21,279 nt of DNA. Origin: a virus. A program made the translations under genes and the position numbers. The stretch is taken from positions 1 to 21,279 of the IMG/VR virus record IMGVR_UViG_3300025128_000415. The stretch is one strand, 5' to 3'. Below the pieces are notes generated by a model. The model saw only the letters and a list, made by a program, of their open reading frames with translations, was not told the origin of the DNA and made no database searches. Shown one piece after another: positions 3,857-21,252 of this stretch (positions within the stretch are counted from its first letter, which is position 1; each line of letters begins with the position of its first letter).

Positions 3857-5196
3857 GAAATAAGCTCCTTTTGAAGTTCATCGAATATCGTGAGATCCTC
3901 GGAAGTTTCTCCTCCATCCAATGTTGCTGTTAAAACACTTTGTTTGTTTTGTATTATCTCTGACAATTTTTCTTCGATTGTATTATCAGCAATCATGTAG
4001 TAGCACGCTGCCGAATTACGCTGACCAATTCTGTGAATTCTATCTTCCCCCTGAGTATGCTCGGAAGGAGTCCATCCAAGTTCTGCAAATAGGACAGTAC
4101 TTGAAGCAGTCAGTGTTAGTCCTACCCCTGCTGCTTGTAAGTTGCCTATAAATAATCGAGTTGACGGATCTTTCTGGAACTTATCGACGACCATCTGCCG
4201 ATCTTTTGATTTTGTTTCTCCTGTTAAGGAGACAGAATTTTTGAACTCGGATTTTATTCGGTCAATAATCTTTTTATGAATACCGAAAACCACTAATTTG
4301 CCGTCTGTTTCTTCCAAAAAATTATGAATCCATTCCACAACGGATTCTATTTTTAATTCAGCAGCCAATCTTTTCAAATACCCCATCTTGACTAATCGTT
4401 CTGCTGATTCTGCTCTTTTAGCCTTTCCGACTGAATACTTTGCAAGCCAAGCAATCAAATCCTTTTCGGCTTCATCATATTCTTTTCTATTACTAATTGG
4501 GACTGTAACTACATACCGTGATTTATCTGGCAGATCCTTCAGCACATCCTTTTTTCTCCTCCGAATCATCATTAGATTGGTAAGGTTTTCGTGAAGTTCA
4601 TTGAGATTTTGAGATCCTTTGAAATCCCAGCCCCAAGGTGTTTTTCTGGCATTACAGTATCTCATCGCATAAGGCATAAAGGCTTTGAATTTACTTGGCT
4701 TCAAAAGATTCAAAATTGGAAACAATTCGGCTGGTCTATTGGTCAATGGAGTTCCACTGATGGCTATAATCTCCTTGATTCCCTTACATAGAGCCTTTAC
4801 TGCTTTAGTCCTTTTTGCTTTTCTATTTTTGATGTAGTGACATTCATCCAAAATGACCAAAGTAGGTTTTAATTTTCTGAGATGATTCACCCAAGCACCT
4901 AGGATTTCATAATTAATAATGATAAATCTGTTTTGATTGAATCCTACGGAGTTTGGAATTTTTCTGCCTTCTATAATTTCAGCATGCTCTCCGATATGAA
5001 CCGCCGCTTCTCTTGCCCAATTGAATTTCAAAGAGGCTGGACATATAACAATCGTTGTTCCTTTTTTATTTCTTTTGTGATAGTACAGAGCTTGAATGGT
5101 CTTACCTAGCCCCATTTCATCTGCCAGTAATGCTCTGCCTTTGAATTCCTCCAGTTGTAGAACACCTGTTTTTTGATAATCGTATAATTTTGTCAT
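3853..5196 (-). CDS. SNF2-family DNA-dependent ATPase/helicase
   Basis: A two-lobe SF2 ATPase of the SNF2 group. Lobe 1 has the Q-motif-like LYDYQKTGV at residues 4-12, Walker A DEMGLGKT at 26-33, DECH at 117-120 and SGTPLTNRP at 147-155. Lobe 2 has LVVFGIHKKIIDRI, GVGLTLTAS and the SNF2-typical QGEDRIHRIGQ near residue 390. At 447 residues it is a minimal SNF2 core without accessory domains, like SMARCAL1/HepA-type phage helicases. Such proteins translocate on duplex DNA and can remodel forks or remove bound proteins. In this operon a role in replication, recombination or origin opening is likely, not proven. Its start overlaps the sigma-like gene's stop by 4 bases. Confidence 0.9.
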   Translation of the reverse strand: MTKLYDYQKTGVLQLEEFKGRALLADEMGLGKTIQALYYHKRNKKGTTIVICPASLKFNWAREAAVHIGEHAEIIEGRKIPNSVGFNQNRFIIINYEILGAWVNHLRKLKPTLVILDECHYIKNRKAKRTKAVKALCKGIKEIIAISGTPLTNRPAELFPILNLLKPSKFKAFMPYAMRYCNARKTPWGWDFKGSQNLNELHENLTNLMMIRRRKKDVLKDLPDKSRYVVTVPISNRKEYDEAEKDLIAWLAKYSVGKAKRAESAERLVKMGYLKRLAAELKIESVVEWIHNFLEETDGKLVVFGIHKKIIDRIKSEFKNSVSLTGETKSKDRQMVVDKFQKDPSTRLFIGNLQAAGVGLTLTASSTVLFAELGWTPSEHTQGEDRIHRIGQRNSAACYYMIADNTIEEKLSEIIQNKQSVLTATLDGGETSEDLTIFDELQKELIS

Positions 5197-5699
5197 CTGT
5201 TTATTGCCTCCGATATTTCCTTAAAGGCTTTGGAGCATCTGGGAGAAGTCCATCCGGACGACATAAGTTCTGCCCTTATTTGTTGTTGTCCTTTTCTCAT
5301 TTGTGAATCAAATTTATTTGATAAACATAGTCGGACTACAATAGAGGCATCTTTGCTTAGATTCATCAATTGAATAAAATCATCAATATCAAAATCTGTT
5401 ATCTCTGTATTATGCATCCCTATTAGGATTTCAGAACTTTCACGAGGAATTAATTCATTCCTTTTTAACTGTTTTCTGAGTTTATCCATTAGCCGAAATT
5501 TGAGAGTCCTAACCAGATAGGAAGAAAATTTTGCTCCTTTGTCTGGTCTATAATCTTCACTGACTTTGAGGAATACTTCATTTGCTTCTGATAGGCAATC
5601 CTCTAAATTCATTGAATACTGTATCGCAAATTCAGCACATGTTTTTCTGATGAGACGTTCAACAGATATGTATTTGTCGTGCAGTGTCTTTTGATCCAT
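5193..5699 (-). CDS. sigma-70-like factor (region 2 type)
   Basis: A 168-residue protein. Residues about 30-80 look like sigma-70 region 2: EDCLSEANEVFLKVSEDYRPDKGAKFSSYLVRTLKFRLMD, with the conserved phe/tyr-rich core-binding helix pattern. The C-terminal third (about 115-165) may serve as region 4, but I see no clear helix-turn-helix. I chose the ATG at 5699, not an in-frame ATG at 5732, because the latter overlaps the promoter -10 and would lie at or upstream of the transcription start. The ATG at 5699 has GGAG six to seven bases upstream. First gene of the replication operon. It could redirect host RNA polymerase to late phage promoters; the GGTTTTACACTAT element is a candidate target. 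That role is inference. Confidence 0.65.
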   Translation of the reverse strand: MDQKTLHDKYISVERLIRKTCAEFAIQYSMNLEDCLSEANEVFLKVSEDYRPDKGAKFSSYLVRTLKFRLMDKLRKQLKRNELIPRESSEILIGMHNTEITDFDIDDFIQLMNLSKDASIVVRLCLSNKFDSQMRKGQQQIRAELMSSGWTSPRCSKAFKEISEAINR

Positions 5700-5730
5700 G
5701 ACTTTCTCCGTGTGAATGAGGGAATAATCC

Positions 5731-5759
5731 ATTATAACATATCTAACAAATATATCTAA
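5731..5759 (-). promoter_or_regulatory. replication operon promoter with direct-repeat operator
   Basis: On the minus strand this reads TG-T-TATAAT, a perfect extended -10 (hexamer 5731-5736, TG at 5738-5739). Upstream lie two copies of TTAGATAT, 13 bases apart (5752-5759 and 5739-5746), covering the -35 and spacer. The -35 hexamer itself is poor. The repeats look like a regulator site. Transcription would start near 5724 and lead into the sigma-like gene. Confidence 0.65.
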
Positions 5760-6960: not shown

Positions 6961-6974
6961 AAAAGGAGATAAAA

Positions 6975-7736
6975 ATGCCTAAAAAAGTATGGAAGGATGA
7001 GAATTATGTACTTGCCTATGAGCTTGCGAAGTCCGGTATGAGCGAAATTAAAATGGCCAAAGCAATGGGAATTTCGGTAACCACACTCAGAAAATGGAAG
7101 GATCAAAAACCTGCTTTGAGATCCGCTATTGAAAAAGCCAGCTCATCTAATTCCAGAAGTATGTCAAACGTCCAAGATTTTCATGAGTATATTTATCAAA
7201 AGCTGCCTCCCCATTTAGCCAAAATATGGGATGAGATTCAAGCAGTTGAGCATGAGGAAAATTCTATTTTGAAAATAGAAGCTATGCTGAAGGGAGCAGG
7301 TAAAAGAGGTCGCCAGCATTTGTTTTTACATGCTCTTGTCACATCCAATTTTAATGTTAGCAGAGCCTGTTCGATGATGAATATGAGCCGCAAGACATTT
7401 GAGAATTGGGTAACTCACGAACCAGAATTTGGTGAGCTTATGCAGGAAATTGATTTCCATAAAAAGAACTTTTTTGAATCTGCTTTGATTGGACTTGTAG
7501 CTGGCGGTGATTCTTCGGCTACCATATTTGTGAACAAAACAATTAACCGAGACAGAGGCTACAATGAAAAGATAGAATTGGATATGAAAGGAACAATTGA
7601 ACACGAACATTTACATGCTCATATCCCTATCGACGATTTGAATTTGAGCTTAGAAGTGAAGCGTGAAATTTTGAGTGCAATTAGGTACCTTAATAAAAGT
7701 AATACCAATGTGCCTGCCGAGATCATTGCGAATTAA
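6975..7736 (+). CDS. terminase small subunit
   Basis: 253 residues from the ATG with AAGGAG eight bases upstream; a longer in-frame reading to 6825 lacks such a site and runs through the promoter. It would recognise packaging DNA and hand it to the large subunit. Residues about 10-45 form a first helix-turn-helix (AYELAKSG, then IKMAKAMGISVTTLRKWK). Residues about 118-160 form a second, the usual phage small-terminase type (FLHALVTSNFNVSRACSMMNMSRKTFENWVTHEPEFGELM). A helical oligomerisation region ends in TIFVNKTINRDRGYNEK, the typical family end. The C-terminal 45 residues are extra and His/Asp-rich. First gene of the late operon. Confidence 0.82.
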   Translation: MPKKVWKDENYVLAYELAKSGMSEIKMAKAMGISVTTLRKWKDQKPALRSAIEKASSSNSRSMSNVQDFHEYIYQKLPPHLAKIWDEIQAVEHEENSILKIEAMLKGAGKRGRQHLFLHALVTSNFNVSRACSMMNMSRKTFENWVTHEPEFGELMQEIDFHKKNFFESALIGLVAGGDSSATIFVNKTINRDRGYNEKIELDMKGTIEHEHLHAHIPIDDLNLSLEVKREILSAIRYLNKSNTNVPAEIIAN

Positions 7737-8133
7737 AAATTGCCCGTTTTGCGCATGTAGTTTTGTTGATTTTGAAGCAGACCTTTCGAGACATTGGATA
7801 ACCTGTTTATATTGCAATAGTACAGGACCACAAGGAGATTATTTTGGGGAGGCGGTCTTAAGGTGGAATGACAGAATGGTTAACAGAATAGCAGGAATTG
7901 ATTTTGGCAGTAGTGATGGTCAGGAGCACTTAAAGCCATACACATTACGGGCATGTCCTTTTTGTGGTGAGAGCAAAGAGGGACTAGAAATTATGGGCGA
8001 GGATGATGCCGAAGTATTTTGGTGTGCTTGTAATAGCTGCGGAACGGACGGACCTTATGGCTTCGAGAAAAAGATTGCTGTCCGACTTTGGAATCGTAGG
8101 ATTAGAATCAATCCAACAGATTTGAAAAATTGA
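7708..8133 (+). CDS. tandem Lar-like zinc-finger protein
   Basis: 141 residues with two copies of a Lar-type zinc module. Copy 1: CPFC (residues 12-15), CLYCNSTGPQG, then AVLRWNDR. Copy 2: CPFCGESKEG, CNSCGTDGPYG, then AVRLWNRR. The CPFCG...W..R pattern is that of the Lar restriction-alleviation family, whose founding member eases host type I restriction in Rac/lambda-related phages; most phage relatives are uncharacterised. Here two modules are joined by about 25 residues. The start is uncertain: ATG 7708 is inside the terminase small subunit end; TTG 7726 is an alternative. The overlap suggests coupled translation. Confidence 0.65.
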   Translation: MCLPRSLRIKNCPFCACSFVDFEADLSRHWITCLYCNSTGPQGDYFGEAVLRWNDRMVNRIAGIDFGSSDGQEHLKPYTLRACPFCGESKEGLEIMGEDDAEVFWCACNSCGTDGPYGFEKKIAVRLWNRRIRINPTDLKN

Positions 8134-8746: not shown

Positions 8747-8903
8747 GAAAAAGAAGATGCCTGAAAAGGATCACAAGATATTATTGCAATGCTATTCCGA
8801 ACTGATGCGGACAGACTATAAAAATGAAACAAATGTCGTTCGGCGCATGAAACGGCTTCAAGATTGCTTTAATTCTAAAAAGAGGGATCAAGGTGAGTCC
8901 TAG
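8733..8903 (+). CDS. small charged protein of unknown function
   Basis: About 56 residues from ATG 8733 (14-base overlap with the DUF3310 gene) or 48 from ATG 8757, just after an AAGAAAAAGAAG purine run. The second start gives MPEKDHKILLQCYSELMRTD and is perhaps better. Helical and basic, one Cys pair far apart, no recognisable domain. The gene overlaps the terminase GTG start by 11 bases, as expected for a real gene in a packed operon. Confidence 0.55.
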   Translation: MRENKKKKMPEKDHKILLQCYSELMRTDYKNETNVVRRMKRLQDCFNSKKRDQGES

Positions 8904-10350
8904 TTTCAGTGAATTGGATTTAGTCAGATCAATATCCAAACAATCATTCTATGAGTTTCTGAAGGAATTCTGGGACGTTATTATCCCAGAGGAGCCCATA
9001 TGGAATTGGCACATAGAATATCTATGCAATGAGATGCAAGAAATAGCTGAGCGTGTCTTTGCGGGTAAGCCTAAAAAGCACGACCTCATAATCAATATCT
9101 CCCCAGCATCTACCAAATCCACAATAGCCTCTGTTGCTTTCCCTGCTTGGACTTGGACACGTATGCCTACTGCACGTCATATCTGCGGTAGTCACGCTTT
9201 CGATTTAGGAATGGATCTGTCCAGAAAGTGTCGAGATATTATTGCAGTTCAAGATAGGATAGACAATAAACCGTCATATCACGATTGCTTCCCTGAGATT
9301 GAATTAAGAGATGACCAGAACACTAAGGGATATTTTGCAAATACGATAGGTGGTATGCGGAAATCTGTAACTGTAGGTGGCAAATCTCCCGTTGGTTTTC
9401 ATGCTCATTTTTTAATTATTGACGATCCGATTGATCCGCAGAAAGTATTATCCGAAGCAGAAATCAAAAAAGCTAACACGTGGATGAATGAAACACTGCC
9501 ATCCCGTAAAGTAGACAAAACGCTGACTCCTACCATATTAATTATGCAAAGACTGCATCAAAATGACCCTACCGGTAATTGGTTAGCCAAAGCCAAGGGA
9601 TCGGATACAGTCAAGCATATCTCACTGCCTGCAGATATATCTGATGGATTTGAAGTTAAACCTGCGCATCTAGCTGATCACTATAAGGATGATCTATTCG
9701 ATCCTTTAAGACTTCCCAAGTCCATACTCAAAGAATCTCGCACACTATTAGGAGAGTTTGGATACAGTGGACAATATGGACAGAATCCAGTACCGTTGGG
9801 CGGTGGTATGTTTAAGGTGGAAAGAATAAGAATTGATGAAGCACCAGCGGATACCAATATTAAAAAGCGGGTGAGATTTTGGGATAAAGCGGGAACACAT
9901 GGTGGGGGAGCATATACGGTAGGGACTCTCCTAGGTATAGATGCTGATAATAGATATTGGGTGCTTGATATTGTAAGAGGTCAATGGGATTCTAGTGAGC
10001 GTGAAAAGGTAATACAACAAACAGCAGAAGCAGATGGGAGGAAAACCATTATAGGTCTTGAGCAAGAACCGGGCTCAGGGGGGAAAGAATCTGCAGAGGC
10101 TACTGTAAGGCGTCTTGCTGGCTTCAGAGTGAGAATAGATAGACCAACGGGTGATAAGGCTCTTAGGGCTGATCCATTTAGCTCACAAGTCAATTCCAAT
10201 AATGTGTTCTTAAAAAAGGCTGACTGGAACTCCGATTATTTGGAGGAACTTAGGTTCTTCCCAGCATCTACTTATAAAGATCAGGTTGATGCATCCAGTG
10301 GAGCCTTTAATCTTTTATGTAATAGGCGGCGAAAAGTAGGAGCCTTGTAG
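8893..10350 (+). CDS. terminase large subunit
   Basis: 485 residues, GTG start with GAGG seven bases upstream. The packaging motor and headful/cos nuclease. ATPase domain: Walker A-like NISPASTKST at residues 68-77 (a common deviant form in phage terminases) and Walker B FLIIDD at 173-178. The hinge region holds ILIMQRLHQNDPTGNW (about 215-230). RNase H-like nuclease domain: RFWDKAGT at 328-335 with the first acidic residue D331, GLEQEPGSGGKESA at about 393-406, and KDQVDASSGAFNLL near 465. All expected acidic positions are present. The stop codon TAG is itself the first linker word of the repeat array that begins at 10346. Confidence 0.93.
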   Translation: MSPSFSELDLVRSISKQSFYEFLKEFWDVIIPEEPIWNWHIEYLCNEMQEIAERVFAGKPKKHDLIINISPASTKSTIASVAFPAWTWTRMPTARHICGSHAFDLGMDLSRKCRDIIAVQDRIDNKPSYHDCFPEIELRDDQNTKGYFANTIGGMRKSVTVGGKSPVGFHAHFLIIDDPIDPQKVLSEAEIKKANTWMNETLPSRKVDKTLTPTILIMQRLHQNDPTGNWLAKAKGSDTVKHISLPADISDGFEVKPAHLADHYKDDLFDPLRLPKSILKESRTLLGEFGYSGQYGQNPVPLGGGMFKVERIRIDEAPADTNIKKRVRFWDKAGTHGGGAYTVGTLLGIDADNRYWVLDIVRGQWDSSEREKVIQQTAEADGRKTIIGLEQEPGSGGKESAEATVRRLAGFRVRIDRPTGDKALRADPFSSQVNSNNVFLKKADWNSDYLEELRFFPASTYKDQVDASSGAFNLLCNRRRKVGAL

Positions 10351-11346
10351 TTCATTTGCCGTACATGTAGGGCAAATGTACTTCATTTGCCCCTACATGA
10401 CGTACATTTGTACTTCATTTACCCTACATGTAGGGGCAAATGTACTTCATTTGCCGTACATTTGCCGAACATGTAATACATTTGTACTTCATTTGCCGAA
10501 CATGTAATACATTTGCCGAACATGTAGTTCAAATGTACTTCATTTGCCGTACATGTAATACATTTGTAGAACATGGAAGAACATGGAGAAGCATGGAGAA
10601 GCATGGAAGAACATGGAAGAACATGGAGAAGCATGGAGAACATGACGTTCAAATGTACTTCATTTGCCGAACATGACGTTCATTGAAGAACATGACGTAC
10701 ATTTGTAGAACATGACGTACATTGAAGAACATGTAGTTCATTGACGTACATTTGTAGAACATGTAGAACATGACGTACATTTGTAGAACATGACGTACAT
10801 TTGTAGAACATGTAGTTCATTGAAGAACATGACGTACATTTGACGAACATGTAGTTCATTGACGAACATGTAGTTCATTGACGAACATGTAGTTCATTGA
10901 CGTACAAATGTAGAACATGACGAACATGTAGTTCATTGACGAACATTGTAGAACATGACGTACAAATGTAGAACATGACGTACATTGACGTACATTGACG
11001 TACATTGTAGAACATGACGTACAAATGTAGAACATGACGTACAAATGTAGAACATGACGTACATTGACGTACATTGTAGAACATGACGTTCATTTGTAGA
11101 ACATTGTAGAACATGTAGTTCAAATGTAGAACATTGTAGAACATGTAGTTCAAATGTAGAACATGTAGTTCAAATGTAGTTCATTTGCCTAACATGTAGT
11201 TCAAATGTAGTTCATTTGCCCTACATGACGTACATTTGTAGAACATGACGTTCAAATGTAGAACATTGTAGAACATGGAGAAACATGGAAGAACATGACG
11301 TTCAAATGTAGAACATTGTAGAACATGGAGAAACATGGAAGAACAT
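10346..11346 (+). repeat. ~1 kb word-grammar repeat array
   Basis: Almost every base parses as a repeat of three slots: linker (TAG, ACG, CCG, AAG, GAG, TAC, TAA), then TTC, TAC or AAC, then ATG, ATTG, ATTTG or AAATG. Units are 9-11 bases, about 100 by eye, all with the same polarity. Local duplications are nested inside: a 19-base unit three times in a row (10842-10898) and an exact 50-base tandem duplication (11241-11290, 11291-11340). A purine-rich subregion (10573-10640) uses GGAG/GGAAG linkers. GAAC/GTTC, CATTTG/CAAATG, GTAC and CATG are complementary or palindromic, so the transcript could fold extensively. Reading frames through it are broken by TAG and by 10- and 11-base units, so I see no gene. 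It fills the gap between terminase and the next gene. Function unknown. Confidence 0.92.
11241..11340 (+). repeat. exact 50-bp tandem duplication in the array
   Basis: Positions 11241-11290 and 11291-11340 are identical, each starting GAACATGACGTTCAAATG and ending GGAGAAACATGGAA. A further GAACAT (11341-11346) begins a third copy that merges into the next gene. Identity over 50 bases amid degenerate words points to a recent slippage or recombination event. Confidence 0.95.
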
Positions 11347-11637
11347 ATGAGAAATTACGACCATGAGCCGATTGTGCCTTATGTAAACTATCTTGATTTA
11401 ATCAGTAACAAGGGTTCACGGGTAGATAAATTGGAATATCCATTGCATGTTCGGGAGGATAAGATATTAAATAGTGGAGAAGATTATGTATTGACGAAAG
11501 TGTCAAATACAAAGGGGGATATATTGCATGTTGTTTTAATTTCCTCGTTTGATGGGATCCACTGGTTTTGTTGGATTATTGAATATCAAAAATTTGACAT
11601 AATGGAGACAGGAAGGCAATGGGAGGATGGCAAATGA
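11347..11637 (+). CDS. hypothetical protein after the array
   Basis: 96 residues from ATG 11347, which has GGAAG five bases upstream within the last array word; an in-frame ATG at 11335 is also inside the array and has GGAG only four bases away. The product (MRNYDHEPIVPYVNYLDL...) has a mixed alpha/beta pattern with an aromatic cluster GIHWFCWIIEY near the C-terminus. No family recognised. Overlaps the metallophosphoesterase start by 11 bases. Confidence 0.6.
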   Translation: MRNYDHEPIVPYVNYLDLISNKGSRVDKLEYPLHVREDKILNSGEDYVLTKVSNTKGDILHVVLISSFDGIHWFCWIIEYQKFDIMETGRQWEDGK

Positions 11638-12535
11638 ATTACCTTTCCATGTTACGAAAACAGGAAAGAATCTTTTTGATGTAAATATGTTCCTAGAAGA
11701 TAAGATCCCTTCAGAATGGGAGCAGTGGGTCTTACTATCTAGTGATCGGCATTGGGACAATCCTAAATCGGATCACACTCTCCAGAAAAAGCATTTGGAT
11801 CAGGCTCTTGAACGAAATGCGGTTATTATAGATGCTGGTGATCTATATTGCGCAATGCAGGGGAAGTATGACAAAAGATCAGCCAAGTCTGATGTGAGAC
11901 CAGAACATCAGGTGAACAATTATTTGGATGCATTAATTAAAACAGGGGCAGACTTTTTCGCTCCGTATGCCAAGAATTTCGCATTGATTGCTGCTGGTAA
12001 TCATGAAGCGGCTATTAAAAAGAGGCATGAAACAGATCTTACCGAGAGGGTATGTTCCACCATTAATTATATATCAGGTGAGACTGTATACAATGGCGGG
12101 TATTCTGGATTTGTTCGTTTTCGGCTAACAGATTTACAGCCGGACAGAAATAGAACACTAGGAAGAAATGTGACCCTTCATTATTCCCATGGGTATGGTG
12201 GTGGTGGTCCTGTTACAAAAGGAATAATTCAAACGAATAGGAAGGCTGTTTATCTGCCTGACGCTGATATTGTAATTAGCGGGCATGTGCATGAGTCTTG
12301 GCAGATTGAATTAATGCGTGTCAGAGTAGGCAGGCAGAAGATATTTCATGACACACAAACACACATTTGTTTACCAACCTACAAAGAAGAATTTGGAACT
12401 GGCTTTGGAGGTTGGCACGTGGAAAGAGGCGCACCGCCTAAACCTTTAGGTGCTGTGTGGCTTCGATTCTTTTACTCCGGTTCCAGAGACATTGCAAAAA
12501 GGGGACTCAATTTTGAAGTAACAAGAGCAACTTAG
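11627..12535 (+). CDS. calcineurin-like metallophosphoesterase
   Basis: 302 residues with the full set of metal-binding motifs in order: SSDRHWD (D40, H42), DAGDLY (D72), AAGNHEAA (N125, H126), LHYSHGYGG (H188) and ISGHVHE (H220, H222). These bind two metal ions in the calcineurin-like phosphoesterase fold. Substrate is unknown: nuclease, phosphatase or cyclic nucleotide phosphodiesterase are all possible. GAGG lies next to the ATG, and the start is inside the preceding gene, indicating coupling. Its position between terminase and portal is unusual for a phosphoesterase, which usually sits with DNA metabolism genes; a defence-countering role is conceivable but unproven. Confidence 0.85.
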   Translation: MANELPFHVTKTGKNLFDVNMFLEDKIPSEWEQWVLLSSDRHWDNPKSDHTLQKKHLDQALERNAVIIDAGDLYCAMQGKYDKRSAKSDVRPEHQVNNYLDALIKTGADFFAPYAKNFALIAAGNHEAAIKKRHETDLTERVCSTINYISGETVYNGGYSGFVRFRLTDLQPDRNRTLGRNVTLHYSHGYGGGGPVTKGIIQTNRKAVYLPDADIVISGHVHESWQIELMRVRVGRQKIFHDTQTHICLPTYKEEFGTGFGGWHVERGAPPKPLGAVWLRFFYSGSRDIAKRGLNFEVTRAT

Positions 12536-20780: not shown

Positions 20781-21023
20781 TTAGTTGGTGACACAAAGTC
20801 CGTTGTGAACAAACCATGCTGGTTTAGGAAGGCCGTTTTCTCGCCATGTGTCCCAGATGTTGATAATGACGCAGAAGAATCGGCCTTCATTGTTTACTGC
20901 TACGATGTAGCGGATGAACTTTGATTTTTCCCCAAGAGGTTCAATAACCTTCTCCAACTTTGCGATTGCTCTGCCTTGGGACTTGTAAGTGTTATAACTG
21001 TTGTTTCCGAATACGTTTGTCAT
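20781..21023 (-). CDS. early hypothetical protein, first of its operon
   Basis: 80 residues (MTNVFGNNSYNTYKSQG...), beta-strand rich (FIRYIVAVNNEGRFFCVIINIW) with an aromatic end. AAAGGATCAAATCAA precedes the start, the full leader of the three promoter modules. No family recognised. Confidence 0.62.
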   Translation of the reverse strand: MTNVFGNNSYNTYKSQGRAIAKLEKVIEPLGEKSKFIRYIVAVNNEGRFFCVIINIWDTWRENGLPKPAWFVHNGLCVTN

Positions 21024-21183
21024 TTGATTTGATCCTTTAAGTTTGAATTAACTTTGATGCTTTAAGCATATCAAATAAATCGTCAATAAACAGTTCTAAA
21101 TCTTCATTTTTTAGAAATAATAAGAAGATAATTAGAAAACACTATTTTTATAGTGTAAAACCTAACAACTTTTTTGAAGATTA
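21021..21183 (-). promoter_or_regulatory. early promoter module, copy 3
   Basis: About 163 bases nearly identical to 110-270. Minus strand: extended -10 (TGA then TATGCT; hexamer 21065-21070), palindrome ATGCTTTAAGCAT (21057-21069), AAAGGA leader. Upstream is the ACACTAT-TTTT-ATAGTGT inverted repeat (21139-21156) and GGTTTTACACTAT on the minus strand (21162-21150). The similarity to copy 1 ends at exactly GAAGATTA; then the second word array begins. Confidence 0.7.
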
Positions 21184-21189
21184 GGGATT

Positions 21190-21252
21190 TCAATTGAACG
21201 TCATGTTCTTCAATTGAACGTCATGTCTTCAATGTTCTTCAATGAACGTCAA
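21190..21252 (-). repeat. second word-grammar array (short, opposite strand)
   Basis: On the minus strand this reads ACG TTC ATTG, AAG AAC ATTG, AAG AC ATG, ACG TTC AATTG, AAG AAC ATG, ACG TTC AATTG: the same grammar as 10346-11346 with the extra core AATTG. About six units. It lies upstream of promoter copy 3. The last ~27 bases of the window are only loosely related, so the right border is unclear. Confidence 0.8.

Follow-up and report, generated by a model that had tools for sequence, protein, structure and literature searches.

Bacterial minisatellites (VNTRs) are composed of intergenic head-to-tail units, form higher-order blocks, and change in copy number while their flanks remain stable. 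The STRR sequences of cyanobacteria are short heptamer repeats in non-coding arrays. In mycobacteriophages, stoperators and start-associated sequences are short, partly palindromic repeats near gene starts, which are dispersed and strictly conserved. One report (PMC4679880) describes arrays of the intergenic repeat TAACTGA, which are commonly situated immediately 5' of a start codon.

The window analyzed here, 21,279 bases long, comprises an entire IMG/VR record that is classed as linear, and it contains a repeat array of 1 kb. Like minisatellites, the array is intergenic and head-to-tail, and it has blocks, degenerate units and length changes beside stable flanks. It differs from them in its approximately 30 partly palindromic unit types of 9-11 bp, built from a few short words, in its location in a phage late operon, and in the replacement of its word set between sister lineages. 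It shares with TAACTGA arrays the short direct non-coding words and an end that precedes a start codon; however, TAACTGA and STRR are each one fixed heptamer at many genomic sites, whereas here a single phage genome has many related words gathered mainly in one place. Stoperators and start-associated sequences are likewise repeated short, partly palindromic phage words near gene starts, but here such words are packed into one dense, fast-changing array. Iteron origins resemble it in their repeated units of ~10-20 bp near helical spacing; unlike these, the array has no conserved unit, lies away from replication genes, and is absent from relatives. Phage genomes are compact, and a limited search of the open-access literature turned up neither an account of a phage array like this one nor a non-coding minisatellite of kilobase scale in any phage late operon; the locus looks unusual for a phage.

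We consider, with moderate confidence, that the locus is a hypervariable, non-coding, multi-word (VNTR-like) minisatellite that originated a single time and is remodelled through duplication and deletion of blocks. The direct observations behind this reading are the exact position of the array, its restriction to a single clade, the sister repeats at the same junction, length change beside identical flanks, block duplication, and word turnover.

Layout and composition of the array

The gene content indicates a tailed phage, with a DnaB-like helicase, a replication initiation protein, a primase, a DNA helicase and a sigma-like protein on the - strand, and a TerS-like protein at 6972-7736, TerL (terminase large subunit), portal and a head morphogenesis protein on the + strand. 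A 179-amino-acid (aa) protein encoded at 5193-5732 on the - strand, in which sigma-70 region 2 alone was detected, is a candidate phage sigma factor for control of the late genes. The protein encoded at 7675-8133, between the TerS-like and TerL genes, matches the Lar family of restriction alleviation proteins twice (Pfam PF14354, E 5.5e-14). Positions 1-270 and 21014-21190 of the window, together with 1946-2117 and 4278-4448 of L239, are diverged copies of one - strand intergenic leader that precedes several small genes. It has a conserved TTGACG...TTAAAGCATCAA stretch and a hairpin (for example, ACACTATTTTTATAGTGT), and is probably a repeated early promoter or leader.

The array fills the gap between the TerL stop and the next start codon (Table 1). 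The TAG stop of TerL, at 10348-10350, sits within the first array unit, and the last unit provides GGAAG, a ribosome-binding-like site, to the downstream gene, the product of which had no match in PHROG or Pfam.

Table 1. Features of the array and its surroundings (window coordinates)
Feature	Position	Strand	Basis or remark
TerL gene	8893..10350	+	PHROG 38, E 1.5e-77; sequence
Array, 99 units of linker + (TTC/TAC/AAC) + (ATG/ATTG/ATTTG/AAATG)	10346..11346	+	sequence, TRF, tokeniser
5' section with CC-type linkers	10346..10480	.	holds longest imperfect inverted repeat
17-bp dyad CAAATGTACTTCATTTG, copy 1 of 6	10373..10389	.	dyad scan
Other dyad copies	10437-10453, 10530-10546, 10650-10666, 11171-11187, 11202-11218	.	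read from sequence
Block of GGAGAAGCATG / GGAAGAACATG units	10568..10644	+	resemble ribosome-binding site plus ATG
50-bp five-unit block, exact tandem duplication, 2.1 copies	11240..11346	+	TRF, 100% matches
Gene for 96-aa conserved protein, start codon abuts last array unit	11347..11637	+	sequence, relatives
Mini-array with words of the main array, opposite polarity	21189..21252	-	84% identity to main array, E 2.5e-13; alignment

A simple tokeniser divided the array into these 99 units, each of 9-11 bp, and a last incomplete one. Exact core-plus-tail words occur 93 times on its + strand, against a mean of 5.1 (maximum 14) in 500 dinucleotide shuffles; outside the array, the window has 1.5 per kb. 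Of the words listed for each slot, linkers fit in 92 of 99 units, cores in 94 and tails in 98. The original prediction of a non-coding array at this position, with about 100 units of 9-11 bp and almost no base outside a three-slot grammar, is confirmed; its single polarity is borne out as a predominant direction. Stop codons number 18/28/27 and 12/5/13 in the six frames, the longest open stretch has 101 codons, and reading TAG as a residue (Q) gave no gain in open length, so that a protein-coding repeat region is ruled out under both the standard code and TAG readthrough. Membership of the CRISPR class, already denied at the outset, fails as well, since the units are contiguous and variable, with neither identical repeats nor unique spacers of constant length.

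The three slots had been thought to vary independently, but they do not. After core AAC, the tail is ATG or ATTG in every case (43/43 units); ATG does not occur after core TTC (0/25), nor core TAC after linker TAG (0/37). Moreover, mutual information between linker and core, core and tail, linker and tail, and tail and next linker exceeded that of all 5000 permutations in each case. GATC is the sole GWWC word missing from the array (0 copies, versus 19 of GTTC, 26 of GTAC and 41 of GAAC).

Direct blocks of at least 20 nt are repeated far more than in unit-order shuffles (500 shuffles, P<0.002), and TRF reports families with periods of 10, 20, 30, 50 bp and more. Together with the exact 50-bp duplication, these long blocks identify a minisatellite-type array with higher-order blocks, contrary to the earlier statement that it is not a plain minisatellite; head-to-tail units within the range of about 9-100 bp and local block duplication, both typical of that class, are present. 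The repeated blocks thus appear to be the trace left by block-wise tandem duplication. The longest imperfect inverted repeat has 54-nt arms that are 80% complementary. Exact inverted repeats of at least 16 nt do not exceed the level of unit shuffles, and inverted duplication was therefore dropped as a mode of growth.

Distribution and turnover among related phages

Among 50,697 phage and 72,556 plasmid records, blastn found nothing that matched the array, and no exact 29-mer of it was found in the viral contigs. A scan of these contigs for a triple TACATTTG returned 89 stretches; the informative ones among those inspected were sister arrays, coding or plain tandem repeats, and clusters of cyanobacterial LexA-like boxes in unrelated contigs, while the remaining stretches were screened by word density only. 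A mixed-orientation scan (CAAATGTA/TACATTTG/CAAATGTA) returned contig L062 and five contigs with a match in apparently ordinary gene sequence. Such arrays were thus found in this clade only, by scans that require particular words and miss arrays made of others.

The only contig overlapping the window lineage, L062, is 99.94% identical to the window over 4788 bp; it starts inside the array and shares 321 identical array bases. In addition, five sister-lineage contigs carry repeats at the same TerL junction, made mostly of other words; their TerL is 88-92% and their portal, where compared, 91-92% identical. Short reads struggle with repeats, and L062 breaks within the array; nonetheless, with this identical stretch and five further contigs at hand, an assembly artefact is hardly conceivable. 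For the existence of the array it is largely refuted, whereas the exact length appears less secure.

Four of the sister arrays measure 982, 1044, 951 and 702 bp; in L172, which shows only the 3' part, the length is at least 487 bp. Between G002 and G001, all 3000 of 3000 flanking bases are identical and the array differs by +62 bp (2 x 31); L008 differs from G001 by one SNP in 3 kb of flank, and by -31 bp and six mismatches in the array. Copy number thus shifts beside stable flanks, as in VNTRs. In the alignment of L143, seven gaps of 10-116 bp fall within the array versus two 2-bp gaps in 3.1 kb of flank. The differences of 31 and 62 bp could in part reflect collapse of repeats in short-read assembly; those of L008 and L143 comprise substitutions besides length change. 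As judged from these comparisons, the array appears to turn over much faster than the adjoining genes, which bears out the suggestion of an unstable, expanding element.

Phages that carry an array group together as a single clade in a TerL tree (support 95/94); their sister group consists of phages that lack it. In relatives without it that retain the downstream gene, the gap after TerL is 0, 15, 18, -3, 12 and 12 bp; the array-free relatives include phages with 85% identical TerL. The array therefore appears to have arisen once, at the junction of TerL and the next gene, in a small clade of uncultured phages. It had been reasoned that relatives lacking the array, with no trace of it elsewhere, would speak against the element. 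Some relatives do lack it, but the sister lineage has an array of other words, and the same genome has a second mini-array; tandem-repeat searches found no second array of this kind in the sister genomes.

The array separates two late genes whose counterparts in relatives overlap or lie almost end to end. In these relatives, the TerL stop and the start of the downstream gene coincide or are a few bases apart (as in L010, with TATAATG), so that translation of the downstream gene is probably coupled to that of TerL; the array probably ends this coupling. As read from the sequence, the downstream gene of the array clade must draw its ribosome-binding site from the last unit (GGAAGAACAT-ATG). In other, distant relatives, large gaps between TerL and portal mostly hold genes or are free of repeats. 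In L027, a distant relative (TerL 49%), a non-coding stretch after TerL, at ~11850-12110, repeats GGTTYTGACTGG several times; TRF does not call these repeats, which may represent a separate, independent cluster of words in a comparable position.

Elements shared by the two array types

While the remaining words mostly differ, the word TACATTTG/CAAATGTA is common to both array types. CAAATGTA has 25 copies in the window array and 19 in the sister array (both orientations), and GAACTACA has 14 and 9; these shared words indicate common descent of the two types. The 17-bp dyad CAAATGTAnTWCATTTG, with half-sites always N5 apart, has six copies in the window array and two perfect ones in the sister array, and was found nowhere else in these genomes. 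The array period is 9.8-10.3 bp in the window and a sharp 10.40 bp in the sister (power 11.0, versus a shuffle maximum of 4.3). The persistence of one word, one dyad and a period of ~10 bp amid this change of words hints at selection.

In the minisatellite reading, replication slippage or recombination between ~10-bp, partly palindromic copies would extend, trim and homogenize the array during phage replication, and ectopic copying would occasionally seed a mini-array elsewhere in the genome, as at 21189-21252. The array itself is probably not essential. A useless 1 kb should be lost from a compact phage genome, yet both lineages retain 0.7-1.05 kb, which argues against this reading. No sequence-specific function needs to be invoked, and the retained word, dyad and period leave a modest chance of one. 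With arrays in two sister lineages and none in an outgroup, the gain can be dated, and the turnover of words and the changes in length can be followed in the same system; it can be asked there how satellites start and whether selection keeps any word.

Possible functions of the array

Among functional readings, a protein-binding platform is the least improbable, and we regard it as unlikely. A phage or host DNA-binding protein would recognize TACATTTG or the dyad repeatedly on one helix face, and the array would serve as a decoy, a silencer, or an aid to segregation or packaging. TACATTTG and the dyad are the only long elements that the two diverged arrays have in common; this, the confinement of the dyad to the arrays with its constant half-site spacing, the ~10-bp periodicity of both, and the presence of HTH proteins in the phage (for example, the TerS-like protein) are consistent with such a platform. 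Against it, that same confinement leaves no promoter-linked operator for the array to work with, perfect dyads number only two in the sister array, close relatives manage without any array, and common descent alone suffices to explain the shared words. A bolder version, in which the array is helically phased and rapidly rewritten while selection keeps only the dyad, its half-site TACATTTG and the ~10-bp beat, is improbable; by analogy, it would resemble a satellite-DNA arms race in a phage. If a protein does bind the shared dyad, the array would be a new phage device.

It had also been suggested that the array could fold through mutually complementary words. Its words are indeed partly complementary, and the folding of its RNA surpasses that of dinucleotide-shuffled sequence (z -7.3 for the + strand and -10.1 for the - strand; -6.1 and -4.8 for the sister array); true complement matches lie far above pseudo-complement controls in both arrays. 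However, compared with random orders of its own units, the array folds slightly worse (z +1.3 and +1.0), and with the shared word masked, the complement excess of the window array over the controls vanishes. The complementarity thus resides mostly in one word pair, word order contributes nothing, and no particular structure is being kept. Words with shuffled letters but the same repeat pattern attained the observed energy three times in 60 if the shuffling was by slot, and never in 40 if it was by unit. The location between co-directional late genes would suit a structured late RNA, a folded transcribed spacer that lowers or delays downstream expression or protects mRNA ends. Given the unit-order and masking results, which leave selection for RNA structure unsupported, a best Rfam match of 26.5 bits against a gathering cut-off of 290, and no excess of terminators or promoters, we hold this reading to be rather improbable. 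Sigma-70-like sites number 5 versus 6.8 expected, and a promoter array was accordingly rejected. TACATTTG fits the Bacteroidetes promoter element TAnnTTTG; this candidate was dropped because the TTG at -33 is almost always missing and the genes have Shine-Dalgarno-like leaders.

An origin of replication or a packaging (pac/cos) site, also among the roles first proposed, is very unlikely, even though the array adjoins the terminase gene and its iterated ~10-bp words look like iterons. A pac or cos site would be needed by all phages with this terminase, but relatives whose TerL is 85% identical lack the array and have hardly any spacer at the junction, which makes an essential role unlikely; nor are the words conserved between sister lineages, unlike the initiator-binding unit of an iteron origin or the sites of TerS.

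Alphaproteobacterial LexA boxes are GTTCN7GTTC or GAACN7GAAC (PMC3091678). A decoy for the SOS repressor LexA through GTTC, GAAC or GTAC half-sites, one form of the host-protein decoy suggested earlier, has next to no likelihood: GWWC half-sites at N5-N7 are plentiful and the sister array has four GAACN7GAAC, but strict boxes in the window array number one for the cyanobacterial class, two for the alphaproteobacterial, and none for the Gram-positive or gammaproteobacterial. In the viral contigs at large, the cyanobacterial LexA box RGTACNNNDGTWCB forms clusters of 4-7 copies within 300 bp in five unrelated contigs (L139 at 10860, L098 at 461, L165 at 125, L096 at 4280, and L091 at 2592). Those in L098 and L165 appear intergenic, and the clusters possibly serve LexA titration or regulation by putative cyanophages.
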